Of a stretch of 42,774 nt of DNA, positions 3,585 through 39,824 are shown piece by piece. The position numbers and the translations under genes were made by a program. The notes under the pieces were generated by a model that was given only the letters and a program-made list of their open reading frames with translations, was not told the DNA's origin and ran no database searches. How positions within the stretch are numbered: position 1 is the first letter of the stretch; each line of letters begins with the position of its first letter. Source of the DNA: a virus; the IMG/VR virus record IMGVR_UViG_3300009100_000020, positions 1 to 42,774 of that record; one strand, given 5' to 3'.

Positions 3585-6047
3585 CTAGCTCCCGTTGGGG
3601 ACTTCATAACCTACGACATAAAGATCCAGGTCGTTAGCACTGAACGATCCACTATAGACCGTATAGGCATGCCAAACCGACTGCGCCCGGTTTGGCAGCA
3701 TGCATTGAATCGCTTGCACTGGATTTTCACCAGCGAACGCCGCAGATAGCGGGTATTCATACATGGCCGCGCTGTCTCCGACTCCGAGATACCACCAGAT
3801 CGCACCAGCGCCGCCAGACGCGACACAAGAAACATTGCCCGATACCGTGACTGTCAATGCAATGGCGGGAACATAGGCGGCAGTTGAAACGGATCCCCAT
3901 ACGCCATTGCCAGCATTCAAAGTTGCTCCGATATTTTTCTGACCAGCATAAAAGCACCTGTTGCCACGAATGTGAACATATTCGAGGTTTCCGCTCGTGC
4001 GCTTAACCGTCGTCAGATAGGCCCAGTGCGTATAGCCGGAGGGCAAGGTCGGTCCCGCATTCGGTCCGGCGTTCGAGCAGATGCCCGCGAGCGTCGACGT
4101 CGTCGGGTTGTAGATCGCGTAGAGGTGCACGTCGCCATTCGACAGTGCCGCGTCAGGACCATTGGCACCGGCGGCGGCGCCTTGCGTCACCGTCAAGCTG
4201 CCGTTGGTGACGAGCAGGCTGCCAGCGCCAGTCTGGTGCAGCACGGCCTCGATGAACGTGACGGTGAATTGCGTCGCGCTAGTCAAGCCAGAAAGCCCGC
4301 GCACAGCGTAGACATCGCGCACCGCAGACTTGACGTGCGCCGTCGTCGCGATCGCCGTGCTGTTGTCATTGGCCGCTGGTGTCGGCGCCGCCGTTGTTCC
4401 GACGAGCGCAGCGTTGGTGATCTCGACCGGCGATGCGGTGTTGCTCTTGACCTGCGATTTGTTCTGGCCGCCGCTCAACATCAAAACGGTGTTGGCGGGA
4501 TTGGTGTCGAAGATCGACACCTGCATGCGGGTGAAATCACCAGTGTAGAAACTACTCGCCGCCGATGCTTTCGCGCTGAATGCAAGCCCGATGTTGGCGT
4601 CAGCGCCGGAAGCCTGGATTAAAACTTGCCCGGCACCGGCAGTTTGCGGCTGGATGTTGAGCCCCAAAGTTCCGCTCGCACCGAACGTCGTAACGCCGCT
4701 CAAGCGCGTATTGTTGAGTAGCGTATTGAGATCGACGCCCTCGATGGCAGTCGCCGAGATCCAGCGCGCGACTTGCGCGTTGAGCGGCGTGCCCGATGAC
4801 GATACGTTGCCGCCGGACGTCAACGACATCAGCGTGCCGCCGGAAAATTGCAGGCCGGTGCCAATACTGACTTGCGACCACACCCCGCTGCCGGAACGAT
4901 AATAGATGGTGTTGGTTCCGGAGAGCGCAGCGAGCGCAGCAAGATCGCTGTCGGCTTGCTGTGCGTCGAGCGTCGCCCGCATGGTCGCCGCGTCGGCATC
5001 ATCCAGCAGCGTGCGCGCAAACACCGACAGCGGCGTCAATGCTGCCGCGCCTGGTCCGGTGAAATACGGCGTCTGGTCGGCTGCGCCGGTCAAGCTCGCA
5101 AGCGCGGCCAGCTCGGCATCATAAGGCTGCGCGCCACCGGTGCCGACTCTGACGTCGAGCGTCCCGGCCGAATATGTCAGGTTGGCGCCGAGCGTGAGCG
5201 CGGACCAGGTATCGGCGCCCGAGCGATGATAAATGCCGGCGGCACCAACGCCGGTCGCCGCTGCCAGCGAGGTTAAGTCCGGGTCAGTCGTTTGTTTGCC
5301 TGCCAGCGCATTGGTGACAAACGCCGTGGTCGCGATGGTGGTATTCGAAGTCGCCGGGCTCTGTGTCGGCGCGGTCGGATTGTTGAGGAAATTCGGACTA
5401 TCGAGCGCCGCCAGGCCGGCGGCCTGGTAGCTCTGCCAGGATGTGCCGTAGCGCAGGTAATAGTTCCCATCCGTCGGCGCGTCAGCAACGATCCCTTGCG
5501 GCCCGGTCGGTCCTTGCGGGCCAGGGATGCCTTGGACGCCCTGCGGCCCTTGGATGCCCTGCGGGCCGGTCCCGCCAGCGGTGCCGGTGTCACCTTTCAC
5601 GCCCTGCGGTCCGATCGGCCCAGCCGGGCCGGGCGGCCCTTCCGGCCCCACCGGTCCCTCCGGTCCGCCAGGCGTTCCGGGCGGCCCCGCCGGACCGACC
5701 GGCCCCTGAATTCCCGGCTCGCCGGCCACCGACACGTTCCAGCTCGGATAAGTGCCGCTGCCCTTGGTGGCATCCGGCGCGACAACGACGGTTTCGCCGT
5801 CGTAACTCACCACCACGCCCTCGAGCCAGACATTGGAATAGCCTTGCGCGGTCGCGCGTACGCGCTGGCCGGGCAGGAACGAAAGCCCGTATTCGTTGAG
5901 CACGAAGCTCTTGTTGTCGAGATCGACGGTCTGCCCGCTGTCGCTTGTGCCCGCGGCACGCGGCCCGATAGCACCGTAAGGCGCGGCGATTGCGACCGCC
6001 GTGGGCTCGACAGTGCGCTCGACAACCGTAAGACCGATGATGGTCAT
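3585..6047 (-). CDS. collagen-like tail fibre protein, 820 residues
   Basis: A modular fibre. Residues 1-110 are a beta-rich head domain ([19 protein letters not shown]). Residues about 113-185 are collagen-type Gly-X-Y triplets ([24 protein letters not shown]). After this come repeated beta modules: units with IATTAFV ([15 protein letters not shown]) and units of the form DLxxLAAL...YYRSGxxxW...GGTL. The C-terminal 250 residues are a beta-sandwich-like tip domain. It overlaps the preceding small gene by ATGA. The same two types of repeat modules occur in the 1292-residue fibre at 11294-15172, which implies module exchange. It probably forms trimeric fibres on the baseplate for host recognition. 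No chaperone gene with a recognisable family follows it. Receptor and tip fold are not predictable here. Confidence 0.8.
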
Positions 6048-24990: not shown

Positions 24991-26817
24991 TTAGCGGAGC
25001 ACTTCCTGATCTTGACCGCGCGAATACTGCAATCTGAACTGTACGAGCACGGCATATATACGTAACTGATTCACAAGATCTGGCGGCCATAGCACATTAA
25101 GCCTATTGGGGTTATTGGGGTCCCTTTCGACTATAAGGTGCTGCTTAAAGCTTTGGACGTCCTCCACTAAACCATTGAACTCATCTATCCTATATTGACT
25201 GACAAGCTCGGCCTTGACGATCTTTGGCGTGACGATCTTCTGCCCGACACCGAAGCGCGTGCCATCGTTCGCGAGCTTGTGGCGCGGGAACTTGGTGGTG
25301 ATGACATGGCGCTGATTGCGGATCAGCCTGGCGAGCGTGGCCATGGTGGTGACCAGCTCATAGGCATCGTCGCTCTGACTGTAGAGGTTGAGCTGATAAG
25401 TCGTGGTGTCGCGCATGATCATTGGCTGACCATCCGAGCCACGTTTCTGCGTCGACAGCCCGACACCCGACAGGGTGTTGAGTTCGGGCAGGATGAAAGA
25501 CTCTTCGGGATGCGCCGACAGCACCTTGTTGAGCGAAAGCGTCTGCAACGGCCTGGCCGGATCGTTGGTCAGGGCGCGCGCAGCTTTCGCGGCGTAGGCC
25601 GCCGCCCATTCCCAAGTCGGCGTCGGCGACAATTCTTCGACCGCCATCACTGCGAGCGGGCCGAAGTTCGGTGATACACCGCCCGCGGCCTGATCACCCC
25701 ACACCACCAGGTCGGAGAAGTTGTCACGCCGGGCGCAGAACAGATGGCCATAGAGCTGGCGCATCCATCCCCAGCGGCCGGTGTCGGTAAATCCCCATTC
25801 CTGGCAAAAATCGAATAGCGTGTTGCTTTCGGTGTTGGGCAACGCGACGTATTCGTATTCGTGCTCGCCGAGATTGGCGATGGCGTCGGCAAAGTCAGGT
25901 TCGCCGCCGCCGACCACGCCGCCGGTACCAGCGCCGAGATGCGGCGGCACGGCCATGGTCAGACCGGGAGGCAATTCCTGCCCACCCACCTTGCCGTAAT
26001 AATTGAGCTGCAAGGTGATGTCGTTGCCGTTCTTGCCCGGTGTCTTGCACGTGATCGTCACGTCAGGACCAGCCGCCACTGCCGTGACTTGCAACGACGG
26101 TTCGTCATTGATGGCAAAGGCCAGCTCGGTCGCCATGGTGGCTGGCGTGTCGGTTGTGCCGACGGCAATGCCGACATGATGACCGCCGATATAGAGATGC
26201 ACCATCCCGGCTTCGACCGGCGCCGTCTGAAACGTGATCTTGGCGGCGGCTTGCGTCGAGCCCGAAAGCGGCGCCACCGGTAGCGCCCAGATCTCGTGCG
26301 CGAAATTGTTGGCAAAGGCAGCGGCGAACATCGACGCGATTTCCGAGCCCTGACCATATTGGCGGTCGGCCTGCGCTTGCGTGCCGATGGGCTTGGGAAT
26401 GTTCGGCGTGCCAATCCCGGCGCCTTGCGAGACGACGTCCGGCACCCACGTCAGATTGAACGTCGCGCCGATGCCTGCGCCGTTGGTGGTAACTTGCATC
26501 ACCGGATTCACCGGCGGCGTCGCTTCGGCGGAAATGCTCCCGGCATCGGTGATGGTGACGGTCGCCACGGCGCCAGTCGTGATGGTGGCCACGGTCAGCA
26601 CAACGCCATTGTCCAGGTTGATCGTATTGCCGACCGCATAGCCGCTGCCACCGGCGGCGACGGTCGCGGTGGAAACCTTTTGCGTTGAGATGATCATGGT
26701 TCCGACGATCAGAATGGGTTGCCGGATGATCGGCAAGCCCGCCATCGACGGGTCGACTTCGGCCCAGAACAAAGGCATGCGCCATTGGGCGGGAATGGCA
26801 TCAAAGCTGATAGGCAT
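24991..26817 (-). CDS. tail sheath protein (Mu gpL family) with an inserted GGSGY domain
   Basis: A 608-residue contractile sheath protein. The beginning MPISFDAIPAQWRMPLFWAE and the segments GQGSEIASMFAAAFANN, HEIWALPVAPLSGSTQAA and the C-terminal NLYSQSDDAYELVTTMATL, IRNQRHVITTKFPRHKLA match Mu gpL-like sheaths. Between residues about 45 and 130 lies an extra beta-rich module with GGSGYAVGNTINLDNG, ATVTITDAGSIS and GAGIGATFNL; this module type is found as add-on domains in other phage structural proteins. Mu gpL has about 495 residues, so the insertion accounts for most of the extra length. It would lie on the outer face if it follows the first strand of the sheath fold, but that is inferred. 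Confidence 0.9.
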   Translation of the reverse strand: MPISFDAIPAQWRMPLFWAEVDPSMAGLPIIRQPILIVGTMIISTQKVSTATVAAGGSGYAVGNTINLDNGVVLTVATITTGAVATVTITDAGSISAEATPPVNPVMQVTTNGAGIGATFNLTWVPDVVSQGAGIGTPNIPKPIGTQAQADRQYGQGSEIASMFAAAFANNFAHEIWALPVAPLSGSTQAAAKITFQTAPVEAGMVHLYIGGHHVGIAVGTTDTPATMATELAFAINDEPSLQVTAVAAGPDVTITCKTPGKNGNDITLQLNYYGKVGGQELPPGLTMAVPPHLGAGTGGVVGGGEPDFADAIANLGEHEYEYVALPNTESNTLFDFCQEWGFTDTGRWGWMRQLYGHLFCARRDNFSDLVVWGDQAAGGVSPNFGPLAVMAVEELSPTPTWEWAAAYAAKAARALTNDPARPLQTLSLNKVLSAHPEESFILPELNTLSGVGLSTQKRGSDGQPMIMRDTTTYQLNLYSQSDDAYELVTTMATLARLIRNQRHVITTKFPRHKLANDGTRFGVGQKIVTPKIVKAELVSQYRIDEFNGLVEDVQSFKQHLIVERDPNNPNRLNVLWPPDLVNQLRIYAVLVQFRLQYSRGQDQEVLR

Positions 26818-29685: not shown

Positions 29686-30923
29686 TTGGTTTCCGTGTGG
29701 AATTGCTCGAACAGCTCGCGCAGCGGTAATGCCACTTCATCGCCGTCGGACATGACAGCAATTGCACGATAACTGGCGCGGTCGATTCGCCATTTGACGA
29801 TGCGGGCGCCGGGCGGGCCTTGCTCGCCCTTCACGCCGCGCTCGCCAGGGCGGCCAGGCTCACCATCGCGGCCAGGCTTGCCCGCGCGGCCGACGCCGCA
29901 GAGAAGTTGCCAGCCCTCACCAGGACAAGGGCCGGGCGCGTCCTTCAACGCAACGAAGCTCGAACCGTTGACCATGACTAAGTCGAGCCGGGCATATTCG
30001 GCTTCGGCCTGGTGCAGCCCGCGCGGGTTGATGGCAGCACCGTCGCGACCGCCGACCGCCAAGCAGATCCAATCGGCGCTATGGCCGGGCCTGGTCGCGG
30101 TATCCTTGAGCGCCTGGTAGCAGGCGCCATCGCAGGCGAAGACGTCGCCTTCATAGGCGACCGTATCCGGCCGCCACAGCTTGCCCTTCGGCAGCTTGCC
30201 GCGTGGACCTTCCGCGCCGCGCTCACCGGCGACCCCGCGCTCGCCTTGCGGTCCGGACGGTCCCGGTGGTCCGGGTGGGCCGTCAACGCCAGGCTGGCCG
30301 GGCGGCCCTTGCTCACCGATGGCCCCGCGTTCGCCCTGCGGACCGGGCGGGCCGTTAGCACCGGGCTGACCGGATGGGCCTTGCTCGCCTATCGGCCCCG
30401 TTGCCCCTGCCGCGCCGGGCGCACCGGGCTCGCCGTCTTTGCCAGGCTGACCGGCTTCGCCAGGCTCGCCCTTTTCGCCGCGCTCGCCTTGATCGCCCTT
30501 ATCGCCGATAGCGCCAGGCGGCCCCGCGGCGCCTGCTGGCCCTTGCTCGCCTTGCAGTCCTTGCTCGCCGACATCGCCTTTCTCTCCCTTGCTGCCGGGC
30601 TCGCCATTGATGCCAGGCGGCCCTGGTAGGCCGGGCGGCCCGCGCTCGCCGATTTCGCCAGGTTCGCCGGTGTCGCCTTTCTCACCGCGCTCGCCTGGCG
30701 CGCCGTCGCGCACGCGCGCCAGACAGTCATCCACGACACGCCGCACTTCCTCGCGTAGCTCGGCGTTTTGCGCGCGCAGCTCGGCAATGGTGGCGCGCGC
30801 CTGCGCCTCGATTGTCTCGCGCTCGCGTGCCCATTGGCGGCGCTGCTCGGCAATGACCTGGCCGAGTGCGGCGCGAAGTTCGTCAAGCTCGCCGTCGAGC
30901 TGCAAAGCGTAAGCGTGATTCAT
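29682..30923 (-). CDS. collagen-like fibre with coiled coil and carbohydrate-binding-like modules, in the head module
   Basis: A 413-residue protein. Residues 1-75 form a long charged coiled coil ([37 protein letters not shown]). Residues about 76-245 are uninterrupted Gly-X-Y triplets ([19 protein letters not shown]). Two short modules follow: [19 protein letters not shown]...CYQAL and [19 protein letters not shown], each like the W/Y-rich CBM5/12-type chitin-binding folds often fused to phage fibres. A second short collagen segment ([16 protein letters not shown]) then precedes a C-terminal beta domain. It is placed between the portal and the connectors, not in the tail-fibre cluster. A trimeric head or neck fibre is therefore likely. 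No known receptor. Confidence 0.75.
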
Positions 30924-33502
30924 TCTTCCTCGCTTTCGCCTTCATCGGATTCCCCGGCCTCGATGCGAGCCTTGACGGCATCAGAAATCTTTTTGGCCGC
31001 GGCGTCATCGCCGTCGTCGAGAATGTCCTGATGCAGCTCGGCGTCTTGGTAGTTGCCGTCGTCGTCGATGTAAAAGAATTCTTTCGACTTGGGATTTTTC
31101 GTTCCGGTCTTCGGCGGCAGGTCGTCGGCGCGCACGACGCGGAAATGTTTTGCCGCAGATTTCTTTTTGCCGACATAGGCATCGAAGCGCGCCATCGATT
31201 CCTTGTCGCCGAAAACCAGCTTGCCCTCCCATGACGAGCCCAGCAACATTTGCTTGCCAAATGCGCTATCGGCAATGGCCCATATTGCCTTCGGGTCGTT
31301 GCTCTTGAGCGCGCCGCCGATTTGAGATTGCACCATCGCCAGCACTTCGGGAGTTGATTTTCCCAGCCTGCGATTGATCGACTCGCGGATCTTGCTCCAA
31401 GCGCCTTTGGTTGGAACGTAGCCATATTTGGCCCAGGCATAGCCGCCGACGTCGAGATTGGCTTTTGTCTCAAGATGCTTGATGCCAAGGTCGCGGTAGG
31501 TCTGCACATTTCCTGCAAGCAACTTTTTGCCGACGCCCTTGGATTGCGCTTCCTTGCTGACTTCGAACAGATCCGAAGTTGCAACGTTGCGTTTGACATC
31601 TATCGAGCGCTGAAATTCGCCGACGGTTTTGCCGCCTTCCTTGAGCTTGCCGCTAATCTCTATAAGATGCTCGCGGGTCTGTTTGCCGCCCGGCTTGCTG
31701 GTGCCGACATTGAAGCTGCGCAGCGACACCGTCATGTCGCCTTGTGCATCGCCGAGAAATGATTTTTTGAAATCACCGGGATCCATTCCGACGCTATCGT
31801 TCCAGACTTCAAGAAACTCCTTTTCGTCCACAGTCGAAACTTTGACGCCCTCTTGCTTGAACTTGCTGGTGCTTTCGACCTTGACCTTTTCCTTGCCGCC
31901 GCCCTTGCCGCCGCCGCTTGTCTCATCGCCACCGCTGCCCGGTTCACTGCCGCACAATAAGCCCGTCTCGGGATCCTGGCAGAAGTCGCGCAGCACAATG
32001 CGCCGGTCATATTCATCCGCCAGTGCGAGCAAGCTGCGGCGCTCACGCACGATGTTGGCCTTTTTCGGCGGCGGCTTGTCTTCGTCGTCGGACTCGAGCT
32101 TGGCGGGTTGCGGTTTGCCGGGCGGTGGCGCACCAGGTGCAGGCGCGGGCGGCGGATGCGGACCGGTCGAGAACGGCGACGGGCTGGTGGGGATGCCTGC
32201 CGCGGCAGACAGCGGCACGACCTGCTGTTGGACGCGCGGCTCATCGCCATGCGCGACTTTGGGATAGCTCTCGAGGTTGCGTGCTTCGTTAGGCGCCAGG
32301 ATGCCGCCCTGCACGGCACGCGCCAGGCTTTCGATGCGATCCTTGAACAGCGAGCGCAGCAACGCCGCGGTGTCCAGCTCAAGGTATTCGTCTGGCACGC
32401 CTTTGAGCTGGAACAGCACGCCAAAGGCTTCTTCGATATGCGAAAGACAGAACCCGAGCCCGCTGCTGACCCATGCCTGGTAAAGCGCTTCCACCGATGA
32501 AAACGCGGTGCCGCGGCCGCTCTTGTCGGACACGCCGAGCACCGCCAGCGGAATGCGAAACGCGAGCGCGATCTGTTCGTCGCTCATCTGTTTCATTTCC
32601 GCGACTTGCGAATCTTTGCCCGGCGTCGACCACGGTTGCACTTTCAAGCCAGCGGTCAGAATCGGCGTGCCGCCTGGTCCGCAGCCGTCGAGCCCGGCGG
32701 CTTGCTCGCGCCAGCGCTGGCGCAGCTCATCGACTTGCTGGCGGTTGAGCACCAGATCGGTCGACAGGATGGCCGAAGGCCGCGCCTGGTTGAGATAGAA
32801 CGCCGTCTGCTGTGCATTGATTGCCGAGCTGGTAGCAATCTCGGACAGCGCAGCGGTCAGCGGCGTCTCGCCGACCAGCGGGAATGGTTGCCGGCGGCGG
32901 ATGCAATGCAGGCGCACGTGCAGCACGTCGCGCATTGGCACCACCAGGCGCGCGTCCGGCGCCAGGCGCTTTTCAATCACATCGTTGCCGGCCAAGTGAT
33001 AAAAAATCTCGCCGTTATAGGCGAGCTGCGGCTTGCACTGGAATGGATCGAACATATGCAACGATTCAATCTCGAAGCGATTGTTGCGCAGCGCCAACGC
33101 ATAGGCGTTGCCCTCGAGATAGACCGAGCGCGTCAGATTCAACATGAAATCTGAAATGCTCTGATAGTCATTCGGATGGCGCAGGATGCGCGATAGCGCC
33201 GAATTGGTCACGCGCTCGCGGCCGCCGTTGGCTTTGCTGCGCCAATGGTCGCCTGGCAGCATGGCCACGGTCTGCGCGTAGGCCGATACGCATGCTTCCA
33301 CCATGGCGGATTGGCTTGAGCCGCCATAGGGATCCATCCCGGTTTGCCACCAGTTGATGGGCGCCCCGTCAGGAAGCCAGCCGCCGGTGACGGGCAGATA
33401 GTACGGCCCCGACCGCGGCTCGCCTTCGACCGCGCGCAACACCGCATTGGCATAGACATTTTGCGCCGCCGAGATGACGACGGGCGCAAGCGCCGTATCC
33501 AT
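30920..33502 (-). CDS. portal protein fused to a C-terminal GNAT-like extension
   Basis: An 860-residue protein. Residues 1-430 are a HK97-type portal: [52 protein letters not shown], and [21 protein letters not shown] near 303-323. Residues 436-480 are a Pro-rich linker. Residues 500-545 contain [19 protein letters not shown] and a Gly/Lys run. Residues about 585-702 are a separate domain with [29 protein letters not shown] and [10 protein letters not shown]; the QxxGxG and following helix/strand order look like acetyl-CoA-binding GNAT enzymes. An acidic tail ends the protein ([22 protein letters not shown]). Typical portals are about 400-450 residues, so half of this protein is extra. Its start is preceded by a possible terminator and it overlaps the collagen gene by four bases. 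Confidence 0.78.
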
Positions 33503-33908: not shown

Positions 33909-33984
33909 GTTGCTTACTAAGTTGCTTACCAAGAGCGACGCTGTGTCCTGCGCTTACTAGCCAGGACACAAGGTCGCTTACCAG
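33909..33984. repeat. four GTAAGC-containing repeats after the capsid gene
   Basis: On the minus strand, copies of TRGTAAGCR occur four times in about 75 bases: one contains the capsid stop codon (TGGTAAGCGACC, 33984-33973), one lies in the loop of a hairpin (TAGTAAGCGCAG), and two form a 12-base tandem pair (TGGTAAGCAAC and TAGTAAGCAAC, 33932-33909). The rest of this gap contains no gene. Confidence 0.6.
33942..33970 (-). terminator. hairpin after the capsid gene
   Basis: A perfect 9-base-pair inverted repeat (TGTGTCCTG with CAGGACACA) with an 11-base loop, starting 8 bases after the stop of the protease-capsid gene. No T-run follows, so it may be a processing or stability element rather than an intrinsic terminator. 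Confidence 0.45.
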
Positions 33985-36329
33985 TTGACGTTGTTGACCC
34001 ATGCGACGCAACCGCTGCGCCGCATTAACCAGTTGAGCGGCATGATCATTCGCAATGCGATGCTGTCAGTCTGAAACAGCGAACGCTGCGGTGACGCCAC
34101 GGTTCCGGGCGAGCCGGTGCCGACCAGCTCAAGTGGAGTCGTGTCCTCCATATGAAGCGTAGCAGAATCGCTAAGCTCGAAGCGCGGCCCGCCACCGCCG
34201 GCCGTAACGAAGTCCGCCGCGTCGACCAGGATGACGGTCCGGGTCGGGATCGTTGCCGAGTCGATGATCGGGATGTTGAGCAACGTGCCCTGACCGATTT
34301 CCGCCTTGAACGGGAAGATCCCGTTGGTGTTGGCCAGCGACGCCGACAGCATCTCGCCGGGATTCATCAGGAACACCGGGTTGCGGATGTTGCCCTTGGT
34401 GCTGGTGGTCAGCACGCCGACCAGCAGCTTGAGATCGCCGATGATCGCGGGCAGACCTGGCCCGGTCGTTGGCGTCTGCGCCGCCACACCGTTGAGCAAG
34501 CCCGCGGGCCGCGTGGTGGTCGCCGGGTTGGCGTCGATGAGCACCGAGTCGATGGACACCGACGTGTCGGTCTGGATGGCTTCGCGCAACACGCCTTCGA
34601 TGGCGGGTGTGCTGTGCTCGCTCATTTCGCGAGTCCACACGGTGATGACGGCGAGTTTTTTCGGCGTAAGATTCTGACTCGTGAACGCGCCGATGCGGAC
34701 CGGGATGGCGGCGCCTTCTCCGACGAAGGATCCGGCAATGGTCGGCGTCACCGAACGAGTCGGAATCACGATTTTCGCGGCACGTCCGAATTGCAACGTC
34801 AGGCCCCTGGCCGCAAACCGGGTATAGACGGCTTGCGGGATGAGCTGCGGCATCAGCTCGGCATAGGTTTGCTGTGCCAGTTCTTGCGCCCAACCCGGTA
34901 CTGTGGTCATGGCGGGCGCAGTGGCCGTGCGCAGGATAAGACCGCAAGCGACCCTGGTGACTTCGTCGTCGCCGTAGATCTTTTCGCACGCCTTGATCGG
35001 ATCAATTTGCCAGTCTTTCGCGAATATCGCGACCGTGCCCGCGCGCACCAGATATTCCAGCGGTGCCAGCTCTTTCTTGCGCTTGGGGATGACGTGCGGC
35101 GCACTGATATCGTGGTCGTTGCCATCTTCCGGGCGGCGCTGGTCGTGCAGCACCGTCAACGCCCGGCTCGAGCTGCCATTGCCGTTGCCGTCAGTCGACT
35201 TCGCCAGCAGCTTTTCCGATTGCAGCCAGGCATCGAGCCGCTTGCGCATCTTGGCGATGTCGGCATTGAGCGCGGTCGTCGTTTCGATTTCGTCATCTTG
35301 GACGTCATCGTTGTCCATCTTCGCCAGAAGCGCCGTCAGCGCGTCTTCCTTTGCCACCAGATCGGTTTGCAAAGCGGCGATCCGTTCTGAAAGCGTGCTC
35401 ATGATTTTTGAGCCCTTTCTATTGCGAGAAGTTGCGGCATGCTCGCCGGTGGCACCGTTGCGCCGGATGGTCCCGTTTCCTTTGCGTTGCTCCGCGAAAA
35501 CGAGTCCGAGCGTGTCGGTGGAAACTTTCAGAGACTTGGCCAACGCCAATGCATTGGCGTTGGCAGGTACCGCAACCAGCGAGCATTCGACCAGCTCTTG
35601 CTCGAGGAAGCGGAATGGCCCGAAGAATGGATCCGACTTTTCAGTCAGCGGTTCGCGCTTGGTGGCGCGGAAGCCGACCGACACCGCGCGCAGGATGTCA
35701 GCGTCAACCAGGCGGCGGATTTCGTCGATGCGCGGTGACGTGCCTTCCGGCGCCAGCTCGAGGCGGCCACGAAGCTGCACGCCGTTGACCTTGACGTCAT
35801 GCCAGCGACCTACAATGAAGGTCGGGTCGTGCGCAAAAAGTGCTACGGGGTTGCGCTTGAACGAATCTGTTTTCCAGCCATCGGCGGAAATGATGTCGCC
35901 CATCCGGTCTTCGGATTCATCCGATAAGACGAAGTGCCAGCCGGTGCCAGCCTTGCGCGCTTTTTCGGCATGCGTGGCGCGGTGCACGTGATCGGCGCCG
36001 CTACTGCGCTCCGACCACAGCATGGCGCAGGCTTCCTCATCGTCGATGGCATCGACGCAATCGCTGATGAATTCTTCGCGGTCGTCATAGTCTTCGGGAT
36101 CCGGTGCTTCGGCTTTTGTCGTCAGCAACCTTTTCCAGAGCGCGATGATGCGTTTGACTTCGGCGGCCGGTGGCGCCGCTAAGTTTTTGCTGTCGCGCCA
36201 GTAGCCCATGCAGATCGCAACAGCCTGTTCCTGCGTGCGATCTTCCGGCGCGTCGTCGCCGAATGTCTCGCTCATGCAGCGGGCCATGAAGTCCGACTGG
36301 CTTTCGCCAGGCTTGGGTTTCATCGGCAT
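33978..36329 (-). CDS. prohead protease-major capsid protein fusion (HK97 type)
   Basis: A 783-residue protein. Residues about 130-275 are a HK97-type (S78) prohead protease: VALFAHDP with His167, RAVSVGF with Ser217, and ELVECSLVAVPANANALA with Glu248 are the family's key blocks. Residues about 310-385 are a coiled-coil delta/scaffold domain (MSTLSERIAALQTDLVAKED). Residues about 470-783 are the HK97-fold capsid (APAMTTVPGWAQELAQQTY, GEGAAIPVRIGAF, LIDANPATTTRPAGLL, SPQRSLFQTDSIALRMIM). A possible internal start exists at ATG 35402 (Met310), ten bases after AAGGG, which would yield capsid plus delta without protease. The N-terminal 110 residues carry a Cys/acidic extension with ESQSDFMARCMSETFGDDA, seen also in other phage capsid-assembly proteins. 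Start at 36329 is preceded by GGGAG. Confidence 0.88.
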   Translation of the reverse strand: MPMKPKPGESQSDFMARCMSETFGDDAPEDRTQEQAVAICMGYWRDSKNLAAPPAAEVKRIIALWKRLLTTKAEAPDPEDYDDREEFISDCVDAIDDEEACAMLWSERSSGADHVHRATHAEKARKAGTGWHFVLSDESEDRMGDIISADGWKTDSFKRNPVALFAHDPTFIVGRWHDVKVNGVQLRGRLELAPEGTSPRIDEIRRLVDADILRAVSVGFRATKREPLTEKSDPFFGPFRFLEQELVECSLVAVPANANALALAKSLKVSTDTLGLVFAEQRKGNGTIRRNGATGEHAATSRNRKGSKIMSTLSERIAALQTDLVAKEDALTALLAKMDNDDVQDDEIETTTALNADIAKMRKRLDAWLQSEKLLAKSTDGNGNGSSSRALTVLHDQRRPEDGNDHDISAPHVIPKRKKELAPLEYLVRAGTVAIFAKDWQIDPIKACEKIYGDDEVTRVACGLILRTATAPAMTTVPGWAQELAQQTYAELMPQLIPQAVYTRFAARGLTLQFGRAAKIVIPTRSVTPTIAGSFVGEGAAIPVRIGAFTSQNLTPKKLAVITVWTREMSEHSTPAIEGVLREAIQTDTSVSIDSVLIDANPATTTRPAGLLNGVAAQTPTTGPGLPAIIGDLKLLVGVLTTSTKGNIRNPVFLMNPGEMLSASLANTNGIFPFKAEIGQGTLLNIPIIDSATIPTRTVILVDAADFVTAGGGGPRFELSDSATLHMEDTTPLELVGTGSPGTVASPQRSLFQTDSIALRMIMPLNWLMRRSGCVAWVNNVNW

Positions 36330-36341
36330 GGGGAATGCTCC

Positions 36342-36917
36342 CTAGAATTGCGCGAACGCCAGCCAGGTTCCGGCAACGTGCGTGATCGGCCAGCCCGCGG
36401 CGCGCAATTGCTCGAGCGCGCCGGTCACTTCGACACCAGGGTTGCCGTAGTCGTGCCAGACGATGACGCCGCCCGGCTTGATCAGCTTGCCCGCGGTGTC
36501 GCTGTCGTGCATGACCGCGTCATAGGAATGGTCACCGTCGATAAATACGGCATCACAGGGCTCGAGCTGGTCGGCGACGTCGAGTGAGCCTTGCGGCCGC
36601 AGCACCAGGCGAAAGCGCGGGTCATGCGTTGCCCAGCGGCCGGGCTTGTGTTGCACTTCCGATTGCTGGCAGCGCAGCGTCGTCACAAAGTCGCTCGGCA
36701 CGTCGACGCCGTAATAGCGCTCAATCGTCGGCACGTGCTCGAGTACGCGTCGCGCGGTCAGACCGGATGCAATACCAATTTCGACCATGACCCGCGGCCG
36801 CACGCGCCGCAGCAACGCGACCAGCACGGCACATTCATTGGCGTTGAGATAGGCGCTAAACGGTCCGCGCAGCGCCGTCGGGCCGAACGACGCTCTCGCG
36901 ACTTGCGGTAAGGCCAT
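36342..36917 (-). CDS. class I SAM-dependent methyltransferase
   Basis: A 191-residue enzyme of the Methyltransf_24-like type. Motif I is VEIGIASGLTARRVLEH (VExGxxxG), the acidic end of strand 2 is YYGVDVPSD, and the segment FIDGDHSYDAVMHD followed by LIKPGGVIVWHDYG is the family's conserved second half. The substrate cannot be told; members act on sugars, small molecules or proteins. Its start lies inside the end of the glycosyltransferase gene (62-base overlap), and it is followed 12 bases later by the protease-capsid gene. The pairing with a glycosyltransferase suggests methylation of a transferred sugar or of its carrier. Confidence 0.75.
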   Translation of the reverse strand: MALPQVARASFGPTALRGPFSAYLNANECAVLVALLRRVRPRVMVEIGIASGLTARRVLEHVPTIERYYGVDVPSDFVTTLRCQQSEVQHKPGRWATHDPRFRLVLRPQGSLDVADQLEPCDAVFIDGDHSYDAVMHDSDTAGKLIKPGGVIVWHDYGNPGVEVTGALEQLRAAGWPITHVAGTWLAFAQF

Positions 36918-38112
36918 GCAGTGCGCTCGTCCAATCGCCCGGCGCCGCCTGGCGGCAGATCTTCATGCTCGGATACCACGGGGCCAGCCAGCGCCAGCTC
37001 GCCCAATGCGACAGCAGTAACGTTACCGGCCGCTCGAGCGCACCCGCCAGATGCGCGGCGGCGGTGTCGACCGTCACAATCTCATCGAGCGCCAGCATCA
37101 GCGACGCGCAGTCGGTGAAATCCTCGAATTCATGCGTGCGCACGCCGAGCGCTTGCGCCTCTTCGCGGCCCTGCGTCTGCACCGAATGCAGCTCGACATC
37201 TGGTAGCGCCGCCACCAGCTCAGCCAGCGGGATCGCGCGCGGATAATCATCCTTGAACATTTGCCCGACCGACCAGGCGATGCCGACGCGGCGCTTGCCA
37301 TTGAGCGACCAGGCGACGCTACGGCGCGGCGCTGACAGCTTGAAATTGGGCAGCACGTCGCCCGGCGTGGCGACGCCGCAAAGATACGGCAACAGCAGGA
37401 ATGGGCAGAAGTAATCGGCCGACGGGTCGTCAAGCACCGGCCCGACTTGCGCCGCCAGCCGCTCAAGCGCGGGCGCGGTTGCCAGCCCCATCACCACGTC
37501 GAGCCCTTGCGCGCGCAGCCAGGCGACATAGCGCAGCGCCATGATGCTGTCGCCGAAGCCGTGCGCATGCAGCGCCAGCAGGCGCTTACCTGCCAACGGT
37601 TCACCGTGCCAGGGCCGCATTCCGGCCGCGAGCGCGGCCTTGCATTGCGGGCGCTGGAACGGCGGCATAGCCTCGCAATCAAAATATTCGCTAAAACCTT
37701 CGTGCCACCGTCCGACCGCCAGCAACATGAAAGCTCGGTTGAAGCGCGCGTGCACGGTCGGCGCGATGACAATGGCAGCATCAGCCTCCAACAGCGCTTC
37801 ATGGTTCTGATTGCTGCGGAACAATGCAGCGGCGCGATTGAAGTGCATCAGGTAGCGGTCGATGCTGACGCCGGGCCGTTGCTCAATCGCGCGATAGCCG
37901 ACGGCTTCGCCGCTGCGCATGACCAGCAGCGGTTCGTTCGGCGGCTCGGGCTTGTGGCCATTGCGGCCGTGCACTTCGAGCAGCTCGCCGTGCTCGGTCA
38001 GCCCGCGCCAGCCGGTTTCGGTTACCTCACACGCGACGACAGGATCCAGGTCCGGCAAATCGCCGAATCCAGAAAAAATCGTTTTGCCCTTGTTTGTTTC
38101 CATGCAGATCAA
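36856..38112 (-). CDS. TPR-containing glycosyltransferase-like protein (GT-B, heptosyltransferase-like)
   Basis: About 415 residues. Residues about 85-150 are tetratricopeptide-like helices (YLMHFNRAAALFRSNQNHE, FMLLAVGRWHEGFSEYFD). The second half is GT-B-like: LLALHAHGFGDSIMALRYV (GFGD loop), VGIAWSVGQMFKDDYPRAI in the donor domain, and EIVTVDTAAAHLAGALERP, typical of the GT9/TPR transferases that use nucleotide-sugar donors. The frame opens at TTG 38112, but ATG 38103 (METNKG) is the more likely start. No ribosome site is clear. The GGCNN array ends about 20-30 bases upstream of the start. The gene lies between the second capsid gene and the methyltransferase, in a head-gene block, so the acceptor may be a virion protein, but a host target is equally possible. 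Confidence 0.72.
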   Translation of the reverse strand: MICMETNKGKTIFSGFGDLPDLDPVVACEVTETGWRGLTEHGELLEVHGRNGHKPEPPNEPLLVMRSGEAVGYRAIEQRPGVSIDRYLMHFNRAAALFRSNQNHEALLEADAAIVIAPTVHARFNRAFMLLAVGRWHEGFSEYFDCEAMPPFQRPQCKAALAAGMRPWHGEPLAGKRLLALHAHGFGDSIMALRYVAWLRAQGLDVVMGLATAPALERLAAQVGPVLDDPSADYFCPFLLLPYLCGVATPGDVLPNFKLSAPRRSVAWSLNGKRRVGIAWSVGQMFKDDYPRAIPLAELVAALPDVELHSVQTQGREEAQALGVRTHEFEDFTDCASLMLALDEIVTVDTAAAHLAGALERPVTLLLSHWASWRWLAPWYPSMKICRQAAPGDWTSALHGLTASRESVVRPDGAARTV

Positions 38113-38132
38113 GCGCTACTTTATTGAAGTTA

Positions 38133-38202
38133 GGCAAGGCCCGGCGAGGCTAGGCATGGCGTGGCTCGGCCCGGCGGGGTTTGGCCTGGCATGGCAAGGC
38201 AA
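38133..38202. repeat. period-5 GGCNN array, copy 2
   Basis: GGC occurs every five bases from 38133 to 38200 on the plus strand with one GGT (38178): 14 units in exact phase, with varied dinucleotides between (AA, CC, GA, TA, AT, GT and so on). It sits between the second capsid gene (stop 38243) and the glycosyltransferase start (38103-38112), and has the same orientation as the array at 1245-1309. Each array lies 20-30 bases before a minus-strand start codon. Confidence 0.88.
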
Positions 38203-38242
38203 GGAGGAAGGCCAGGAGTTCGCGCTTCTGGCCTTCCGATTG

Positions 38243-39301
38243 TCATTTCCAAACAGGAGTCATCCAAGCGAAAGCACGCGGGTCGCGCAAGGCCCAGGTC
38301 ACGGGCCAGCGCATTTTAAGGCTCATAGTATCCGTTTGAAACATCGAGCGTTGCGGCCCCATGGTCCCGGCGGGACCGGGCACGGTATCCATCACTAAGC
38401 TCGCGGCCTTCGATGTCTCAATTTCCGGCTGCGGCGAGAACGCTGCCACCAGCGCCGCGGGCGCAATCGCCAGCACGTCGTTGATGACCGCGCTCGAGCC
38501 CAGCACAATGACGTTGGTTCCGCTCGGCGCGCCGCTGGTGCGGGCATTGAACAACATCGCCCGGCCCGGCGACATGACCAGGATAAACGGCCCGTTGCCG
38601 CCGACCGGCGCGAGTTCATTGAACAGCACGCCCATGTCTTCGTAGAACGCATAGGTCGGATCGGCATTGTTCGACGCCGTCGATGCCGCGATGCCATAGC
38701 GCAGGCCCGCCGGGCGAGCGGCGTCGCCGGGATTGGCGTCGAATAGCACTTCGTCGAGCATCCGGCCGGCGGCGTGCGTCAGGGTATCTTCCACCAGCGC
38801 TTCGGCGTTGCTGCTTTCGATCATCTCCCGCGTCAGCACCGCGATGGCAGCGAGCTTGTGCGGCTCGAGAAGGGCAGGCGATGCCGCGAGCTGGCGCACC
38901 GGGATCGGAGCACCTTCGGCGACGAAGCCAGCATTGCCGAACTCGGCCACAAAGCCGGGCGCACTGATTGAGCCGAAGCCGTCGAAGTTGAGCACCAGGC
39001 TGTTGCGGAAGATCTCGGCGGCCGCCGACGCCGGACCAAGCGCCTTGAGATTGTCCGCCACCATGCGCTGCGCCAGCTCGGCGGCCCAGCCCGCCACCGA
39101 TGTCATGGCCGGCGCCACCGCCGCGCGTATCACCCGGTCGCTCGGATAACGCTCGGCCACCACGTCCTCAATCCGGCGCCCTCGCACTTGCGCAATGATT
39201 TGTGCCGTCACCAGGCGCACGAAGCTGTTGCCGCCCGGTAGCGATGGCTCGGGCTGGAATGACGGCTTCACCGGCTGCGGCGGCGTCATGAGCATGTTCA
39301 T
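38243..39301 (-). CDS. second HK97-fold capsid protein (minor or vertex type), 352 residues
   Basis: Homologous to the capsid domain of the gene at 33978-36329: VAPAMTSVAGWAAELAQRM, AEGAPIPVRQLAA, LTREMIESSNAEALVEDTL, VLFDANPGDAARPAGLRYG, and the ending PQRSMFQTDTMSLKMRWPV all have counterparts there in the same order. It lacks the N-terminal protease and the coiled-coil delta domain, starting instead with a short Pro/Gln-rich segment (PPQPVKPSFQPEPSLP). Both copies keep the structured blocks, and neither is frame-broken. In other phages paired capsid proteins divide hexamer and vertex sites, which is a plausible job here. The leader contains a 10-base-pair hairpin at 39340-39381. Confidence 0.82.
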   Translation of the reverse strand: MNMLMTPPQPVKPSFQPEPSLPGGNSFVRLVTAQIIAQVRGRRIEDVVAERYPSDRVIRAAVAPAMTSVAGWAAELAQRMVADNLKALGPASAAAEIFRNSLVLNFDGFGSISAPGFVAEFGNAGFVAEGAPIPVRQLAASPALLEPHKLAAIAVLTREMIESSNAEALVEDTLTHAAGRMLDEVLFDANPGDAARPAGLRYGIAASTASNNADPTYAFYEDMGVLFNELAPVGGNGPFILVMSPGRAMLFNARTSGAPSGTNVIVLGSSAVINDVLAIAPAALVAAFSPQPEIETSKAASLVMDTVPGPAGTMGPQRSMFQTDTMSLKMRWPVTWALRDPRAFAWMTPVWK

Positions 39302-39470: not shown

Positions 39471-39824
39471 TCATGTGCCCGGCGGACGCAGCGTAACGAT
39501 GAACGTCCGATCTGCCGTTTGAACAACCGGACCGGCGAGCGGACCGGACCGAAACTTCCACCAGCCAATGCCGGAAGACCACGGCTCTATGTTGATCATG
39601 CGCGCGCTTCCGGGAATGACAGCAAGCAACGCTTCCCTGCCTGAGAGATCAAGCAAGTTGTGATAGGTGACGCCGTCATGAGAGATTTGAAATGACAGGT
39701 TAGCAGGCGTCCATTGCAGCGGCATCTGAATCCGCGCAAGATAACCCTCGGTGCAATCCACCCCGGCCGAAAGCGATTGGCCAGCAAGAATTATAATGCT
39801 CACGGCGGGACGGGCGACAGGCAT
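39471..39824 (-). CDS. beta-rich virion-associated protein, possibly decoration-like
   Basis: A 117-residue protein: IIILAGQSLSAGVDCTEG, LQWTPANLSFQISHDGVTY, HNLLDLSGREALLAVIPGS, GIGWWKFRSGPLAGPVVQTA and DRTFIVTLRPPGT. The pattern is an eight-strand beta-sandwich like F5/8-type or galactose-binding-like domains encoded next to capsid genes in many phages. Position just upstream of the second capsid gene suggests a decoration or accessory head protein. No catalytic signature. Confidence 0.58.
   Translation of the reverse strand: MPVARPAVSIIILAGQSLSAGVDCTEGYLARIQMPLQWTPANLSFQISHDGVTYHNLLDLSGREALLAVIPGSARMINIEPWSSGIGWWKFRSGPLAGPVVQTADRTFIVTLRPPGT

Follow-up and report, generated by a model that had tools for sequence, protein, structure and literature searches.

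Virion glycosylation is known in phages from few systems, and two HK97-fold proteins can occur in one phage, as in T4, where gp23 and gp24 are capsid paralogs. In mycobacteriophages Che8, Corndog, and Myrna, the capsid and the tail tube are glycosylated (Freeman et al. 2023, as cited in the excerpted text of PMC12363180 and PMC12619734). There, phage-encoded glycosyltransferases add sugars to a capsid and a tail-tube protein; we propose a role in virion glycosylation for the transferase described below (hereafter GT) as well, but the mycobacteriophage system has been shown experimentally, whereas ours is known from genes and predicted folds. The same excerpts do not mention linkage to a second capsid gene, and the two systems are likened by description, not by glycosyltransferase sequence or gene place.

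Two bacterial protein glycosyltransferases provide further comparisons. According to the excerpted text of PMC7591256, FlmG of Caulobacter is a flagellin O-glycosyltransferase with TPR and GT-B domains, and its N-terminal TPR domain binds flagellin, the protein acceptor. The phage GT has the same order, TPR then GT-B; however, FlmG has 596 aa, the TPR of the phage protein is short and comes with an additional beta domain, and the likeness is one of domain order, not of sequence. TibC is described in PMC4358343 as a protein heptosyltransferase that is inactive without its N-terminal beta-barrel, with Asp110, Lys230, Arg286, and Trp305 as catalytic Asp and donor-binding residues, an iron finger, and a dodecameric assembly. 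TibC and the bacterial autotransporter heptosyltransferases share the GT9-like GT-B fold with the phage GT (Z 15.4 over 236 residues for TibC), and a beta domain lies ahead of GT-B in both TibC and the phage protein, a likeness of position only. Unlike TibC, the phage GT has a TPR. A glycosyltransferase coupled to a second capsid gene was not described in the titles and abstract openings that we found in the open-licence PMC literature.

The DNA analyzed here (the window) is a stretch of 42,774 nt from a virus record; by a 50-base comparison, its first base corresponds to base 33281 in a record of 76,054 bases. In an ORF list with Pfam and PHROG profiles, its head region lies on the minus strand and is transcribed in the order TerS, TerL, small ORFs, MCP2, GT, MT, MCP1, a small ORF, portal, and a collagen-like gene. 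The tail genes of the window are of the contractile, Mu-like kind. The features on which the analysis turns are these:

33978..36329, minus strand: MCP1, an HK97 capsid protein to which an S78 prohead protease is fused
36342..36917, minus strand: MT, Methyltransf_24 family, 191 aa from an ATG
36856..38112, minus strand: GT, made up of a beta domain at the N terminus, a short TPR, and a GT9/TibC-like GT-B domain, 418 aa from a TTG at 38112
38113..38242, no strand: gap between MCP2 and GT, 130 nt with 15- and 30-nt tandem repeats
38243..39301, minus strand: MCP2, a second HK97-fold capsid protein, without protease, the conserved neighbor of GT

An alternative GT start, the ATG at 38103, would give 415 aa. 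GT and MT overlap by 62 nt (36856–36917), and the genes on either side, MCP1 and MCP2, both match phrog_617 (5.7e-77 and 4.1e-20, respectively), in agreement with the initial annotation, which had placed an overlapping glycosyltransferase and methyltransferase between two capsid genes. MCP1 comprises Peptidase_S78 and Phage_capsid domains. MCP2 is 36% identical to the C-terminal half of MCP1, and its model (pLDDT 78.6) is predicted to adopt the HK97 fold, with Foldseek matches to 8gta (7e-11) and to HK97 itself (1ohg, 3.8e-8) at a TMq of about 0.45. MCP1 and MCP2 thus resemble gp23 and gp24 of T4 as a paralogous HK97-fold pair in one phage; unlike that pair, MCP1 is fused to a protease and MCP2 is paired with GT. 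The earlier remark that a transferase pair in this place is foreign to the standard Mu or HK97 gene order stands as far as we searched, in that we found no GenBank phage closely related in GT, MT, or the capsid genes. Among GenBank phages, GT found two weak tblastn matches (24.1% and 22.7% identity) and MT none; MCP2 matched 16 records and MCP1 30, at about 25%–32% identity (near 38% for short MCP1 pieces). Sequence searches with all four genes found no close cultured relative, nor did a cultured phage with this arrangement come up in them.

Several further features of this DNA were recorded. The N-terminal stretch 40–130 of the tail sheath (24991–26817, minus strand) matches phrog_9703, “head decoration” (3.5e-6), and a second collagen-repeat gene (3585–6047, minus strand) lies near the tail end of the window. 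The portal protein is extended at its C terminus by about 420 aa (30920–32182, minus strand); this extension gives weak matches to GNAT acetyltransferases (E 0.035–0.072, below the cut-off), and parts of it match separate genes in two related loci (L014 12539–14078 and L019 3280–4691). Relatives of a small ORF that has no Pfam match (39471–39824, minus strand) turn up repeatedly in the head interval, whether or not the phage has MCP2. Beyond the window, the 76-kb record contains an integrase-like gene that scores slightly below the Pfam cut-off (L269 11276–12475, minus strand) and a RecT gene (L270 3142–4236, plus strand); from these two genes, the phage may be temperate.

The Pfam match of GT to Glyco_transf_9 is weak (1.9e-4), and because its score of 21.3 bits is under the cut-off of 22, we call GT GT9-like and do not file it as a GT9 member. 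Its AlphaFold2 model (pLDDT 89) has beta structure at residues 18–73, helices at 81–144, and a GT-B domain at about 165–403; model and PDB structural matches together predict the double-Rossmann fold of GT-B. The closest folds in the PDB are WaaF, WaaC, and TibC (Z 14.8–16.1, rmsd 3.2–3.7 over 218–237 residues), with WaaF at Z 16.1 over 227 residues and 3.4 Å, and TibC at 3.2 Å. The next structural matches are TPR chains (Z about 10–12.6 over about 70 residues), and the modeled helices 81–144 would form a TPR ahead of the transferase domain, as in TPR protein glycosyltransferases of the FlmG/OGT type. The TPR-linked GT-B enzyme of the initial annotation is recovered from predicted structure; at E ≤ 0.01, Pfam sequence models find no TPR in this GT. 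When the PDB was searched by sequence with a GT profile, one weak match resulted, in the TPR region. Residues 1–79 were spanned by few structural matches in a search made with the whole GT, which is no evidence of novelty.

Among 22 aligned GT rows, 45 residues are invariant, including D185 and the motif D346-T-A-A-x-H351; the median identity among GT sequences is about 49%. Bacterial relatives of GT number 216 in species genomes; the best 80 are 27%–36% identical, and in 79 of these 80 the match begins at GT residue 52 or later. A profile of the N-terminal part matched 108 viral ORFs and none of the ORFs of 80 bacterial loci, whereas profiles of the TPR and GT parts match viral and bacterial ORFs alike. 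The N domain is present in 181 of 182 viral GT ORFs (the sole one without it is in L005). On these profile comparisons, the N-terminal beta domain of GT is phage-specific. The odd one out (L005 949–1947, minus strand) is a TPR-GT on a contig with TerL and MT on the other strand, away from recognizable capsid genes.

MT scores well above the Methyltransf_24 cut-off (7.4e-16, 59.4 bits against 26.3), so that the family named in the initial annotation can be kept. Its invariant residues (11 rows) are E46-x-G48, D127-G-D-H130, and H155-D156..N159; motifs of the E-x-G, DGDH, and HD..N type bind metal in O-methyltransferases. PDB sequence matches of MT are weak (E 0.004–0.1) and mostly to O-methyltransferases, and MT is probably one as well.

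For comparison across viral contigs, loci were gathered via relatives of GT, MT, MCP2, and MCP1, the GT-led alignment scans covering the best 80 of 215 and the best 80 of 125 relatives. The main set holds 182 loci with GT above 150 bits, which fall into 105 clusters at 90% identity; a smaller set of 97 contigs (81 clusters), with the same cut-offs and with repeat views of one contig dropped, agrees with it. At about 50% GT identity, an MCP2-type gene adjoins GT in 101 of the 103 clusters with enough sequence, upstream in 98 and downstream in 3 (L012, L183, L273). The contig ends at GT in two of the 105 clusters (L145, L253), and two lack an MCP2-type neighbor (L005, L315). Six of the 98 upstream genes are a lower-scoring paralog (233–272 bits; L131, L133, L142, L153, L188, L301), up to 2.7 kb off. 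With GT starts chosen by position, a candidate start lies between −12 and +15 nt from the MCP2 end in 74 of the 98, 25 of them with a 4-nt overlap, so that the gap in most relatives is a few nucleotides or an overlap. The window is one of the 24 outside this range: it lacks tight MCP2–GT coupling because its GT starts 130–139 nt past MCP2.

Because the arrangement recurs in about 100 divergent clusters, the GT/MT cassette is no chance insertion. The proposed link to head genes is thus conserved, but the partner is MCP2 and not capsid genes in general. In one of the two exceptions (L315 4757–7149), a GT with the N domain sits in a 4-nt overlap behind a baseplate-hub-like gene (phrog_184, 2e-14), amid other baseplate genes; because of this case, we describe the GT family as keeping to virion genes, not always to a capsid gene. 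A further HK97 paralog lies beside MCP2 and GT in four loci (L034 4631–5641, L142 2160–3176, L163 2323–3333, L273 2319–4297), and some relatives have up to three capsid-type genes per interval.

MT behaves differently from GT. It is present in 27 of 55 complete intervals, every time with GT. Of the 105 GT clusters, 54 have MT no more than 1 kb downstream of GT and 6 have it at another place in the locus; 36 lack it although the sequence is long enough to tell, and 9 are undecidable. MT is an accessory, optional add-on, with about 10 changes on the MCP1 tree. The expectation that relatives would keep the GT–MT pair therefore holds for a unit of MCP2 and GT, whereas GT and MT are no fixed pair. 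Other genes also occur in the interval, as judged from 20 of 48 listed interval ORFs scanned with Pfam: a TylF/Methyltransf_24 protein right after GT in L014; a Methyltransf_23 protein after GT and then MptE-like and GDSL proteins in L151; a GH25 protein in L147; an HNH protein in L160; and large proteins without a Pfam match in some intervals. By their families, the extra genes of L014 and L151 would fit sugar tailoring; the GH25, HNH, and large proteins appear to have no bearing on it.

An MCP1-led contrast, not ascertained on GT or MCP2, took the best 80 of at least 539 relatives (70 clusters). Among its 28 clusters with a complete TerL–MCP1 interval, 17 have both MCP2 and GT, 11 have neither, and none has one without the other. 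Within the 42 incomplete clusters, 4 have MCP2 adjoining MCP1 with no GT between (L224, L239, L247, L250), and 2 have GT with no visible MCP2 (L228, L253), on contigs that begin within or close to GT. Over all scans, the 55 clusters with complete intervals comprise 43 with both genes, 11 with neither, one with MCP2 and no GT (the L026 cluster), and none with GT and no MCP2. MCP2 does not need GT, because it occurs without GT in the L026 cluster and because no GT lies between MCP2 and MCP1 in L011 and in the four incomplete clusters just named.

On the MCP1 tree, which comes from a quick search and leaves 11 of its 52 inner branches unresolved, MCP2 requires one change, GT two, and MT about 10. 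Thus, MCP2 and GT were gained or lost together once, GT was lost at least once with MCP2 kept, and MT turns over; the co-occurrence of MCP2 and GT is essentially one event on the tree. A Fisher p of 6.5e-10 for the MCP2/GT table was rejected as a count of independent events, because the tree needs only one MCP2 and two GT changes.

The divergence of GT runs most closely parallel to that of MCP2. Across 43 rows, the distances of GT correlate with those of MCP2 at r 0.54, MCP1 at 0.36, and TerL at 0.26, and the partial correlations are 0.46 (MCP2, given MCP1 and TerL), 0.21, and 0.14, respectively. With the portal added (33 rows; GT–portal r 0.55), partial values are 0.40 for MCP2, 0.23 for portal, 0.13 for MCP1, and 0.02 for TerL; with MT added (27 rows), they are 0.41 for MT, 0.23 for MCP2, 0.09 for MCP1, and −0.05 for TerL. 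Being adjacent is by itself enough to make distances correlate, and genome neighborhood can explain part of this correlation, yet the farther-off portal exceeds MCP1.

The identity of these genes, the predicted fold and domain make-up of GT, its conserved linkage, and its divergence in step are established by the comparisons above. The adjacency of a glycosyltransferase and a capsid paralog suggests that these phages put sugars on their own particles, and an enzyme that is predicted to be soluble, combines TPR and GT-B with an N-terminal domain of its own, and is linked to a paralog of the capsid protein would by analogy fit cytoplasmic glycosylation of a virion protein of the FlmG/TibC kind. 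We give an even chance to the reading that GT glycosylates a virion protein, most likely MCP2, and that MT O-methylates the sugar in some lineages. For the acceptor, the donor sugar, the chemistry and activity, the presence of MCP2 in the virion, and the benefit to the phage, we infer the following course. GT would be a cytoplasmic protein glycosyltransferase produced together with MCP2, and its N-terminal beta domain and short TPR would recognize the newly made virion protein, most likely MCP2. The GT-B domain would then take a sugar from a nucleotide-sugar of the host (ADP-heptose-like or of another kind) and attach it to a Ser/Thr or other side chain, and MT, where present, would O-methylate the sugar (less likely the protein), capping it. 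Modified MCP2 would co-assemble with MCP1 into a sugar-bearing head, where the sugars might shield the particle, help it adhere to matrix or host, or stabilize the head. Where GT follows a baseplate gene (L315), the acceptor may differ. A more specific version, which we put forward tentatively as somewhat improbable, is that MCP2 is a dedicated glyco-capsomer: a protease-less duplicate that carries the sugars, recognized by its own GT via the unique N-terminal domain, with interchangeable methyltransferases and tailoring enzymes varying the sugar cap by lineage.

GT (and MT) might instead act on another virion protein (baseplate, tail, or collagen-like fiber), the place in the head operon reflecting late expression only. 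This is unlikely in our estimation: in 101 of 103 clusters GT has MCP2, not a fiber or tail gene, as its neighbor, GT distances track those of MCP2 best, and relatives without MCP2 are also without GT (11 of 11 complete intervals), several of them keeping the portal and a head–tail adaptor gene. What speaks for it is the N-domain GT behind the baseplate-hub-like gene of L315, the tracking of the portal by GT distances (r 0.55, partial 0.23, 33 rows), and the glycosylation of the mycobacteriophage tail tube as well (excerpted text of PMC12363180). The collagen-like fiber, offered as an example of a target in the initial annotation, gained no specific support.

Less probable again is that, during infection or lysogeny, GT and MT change LPS or capsule at the surface of the host, as a superinfection block or a serotype change. 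The closest solved folds do include the LPS heptosyltransferases WaaF and WaaC, and the 76-kb record has its integrase-like gene outside the window; but GT is found among late structural genes in all clusters but one, not with lysogeny genes, no host-surface genes lie beside it in annotated loci, and it has a TPR and an extra N domain, like protein glycosyltransferases. Serotype-converting phage glycosyltransferases are mostly membrane proteins. Conservation of the pair with host-surface genes elsewhere, which had been named as the outcome that would speak against a virion role, was not seen among the viral loci retrieved, where the lone N-domain GT away from capsid genes is the one with baseplate genes.

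We also doubt, slightly more strongly, that GT is hitch-hiking cargo, fixed once in the late operon and kept by linkage with no virion function. Against cargo, the enzyme has stayed intact while its median identity is about 49%, with 45 residues invariant in 22 rows; it is kept in 43 of 44 MCP2-bearing clusters with a complete interval; and it moves along with MCP2 when the order changes (L012, L183). In favor of cargo, a single gain or loss accounts for MCP2 and GT, the interval varies in its content of MT and other genes, and GT was lost in the L026 cluster. A thymidylate-synthase-like gene (PF00303) is needed for making hydroxymethyl bases. That GT glycosylates phage DNA at a modified base is very improbable, DNA-acting phage glycosyltransferases being known (PMC12619734, citing Pyle 2024, in its excerpted text) but such a synthase gene appearing in 0 of 11 virus records (several possibly fragments), and GT having TPR and beta domains and linkage to a capsid gene.

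In this widespread uncultivated lineage, a protein-type glycosyltransferase is tied to a second HK97 capsid gene, which provides a concrete candidate for an enzyme–acceptor pair. The tie between MCP2 and GT is a possible reason for two capsid proteins in one phage, and the N-terminal domain, phage-specific by the profiles, may aim cytoplasmic protein glycosylation. If MCP2 is indeed a dedicated glyco-capsomer, the head of these phages would be a mosaic of two capsid proteins whose sugar coat can be tuned.
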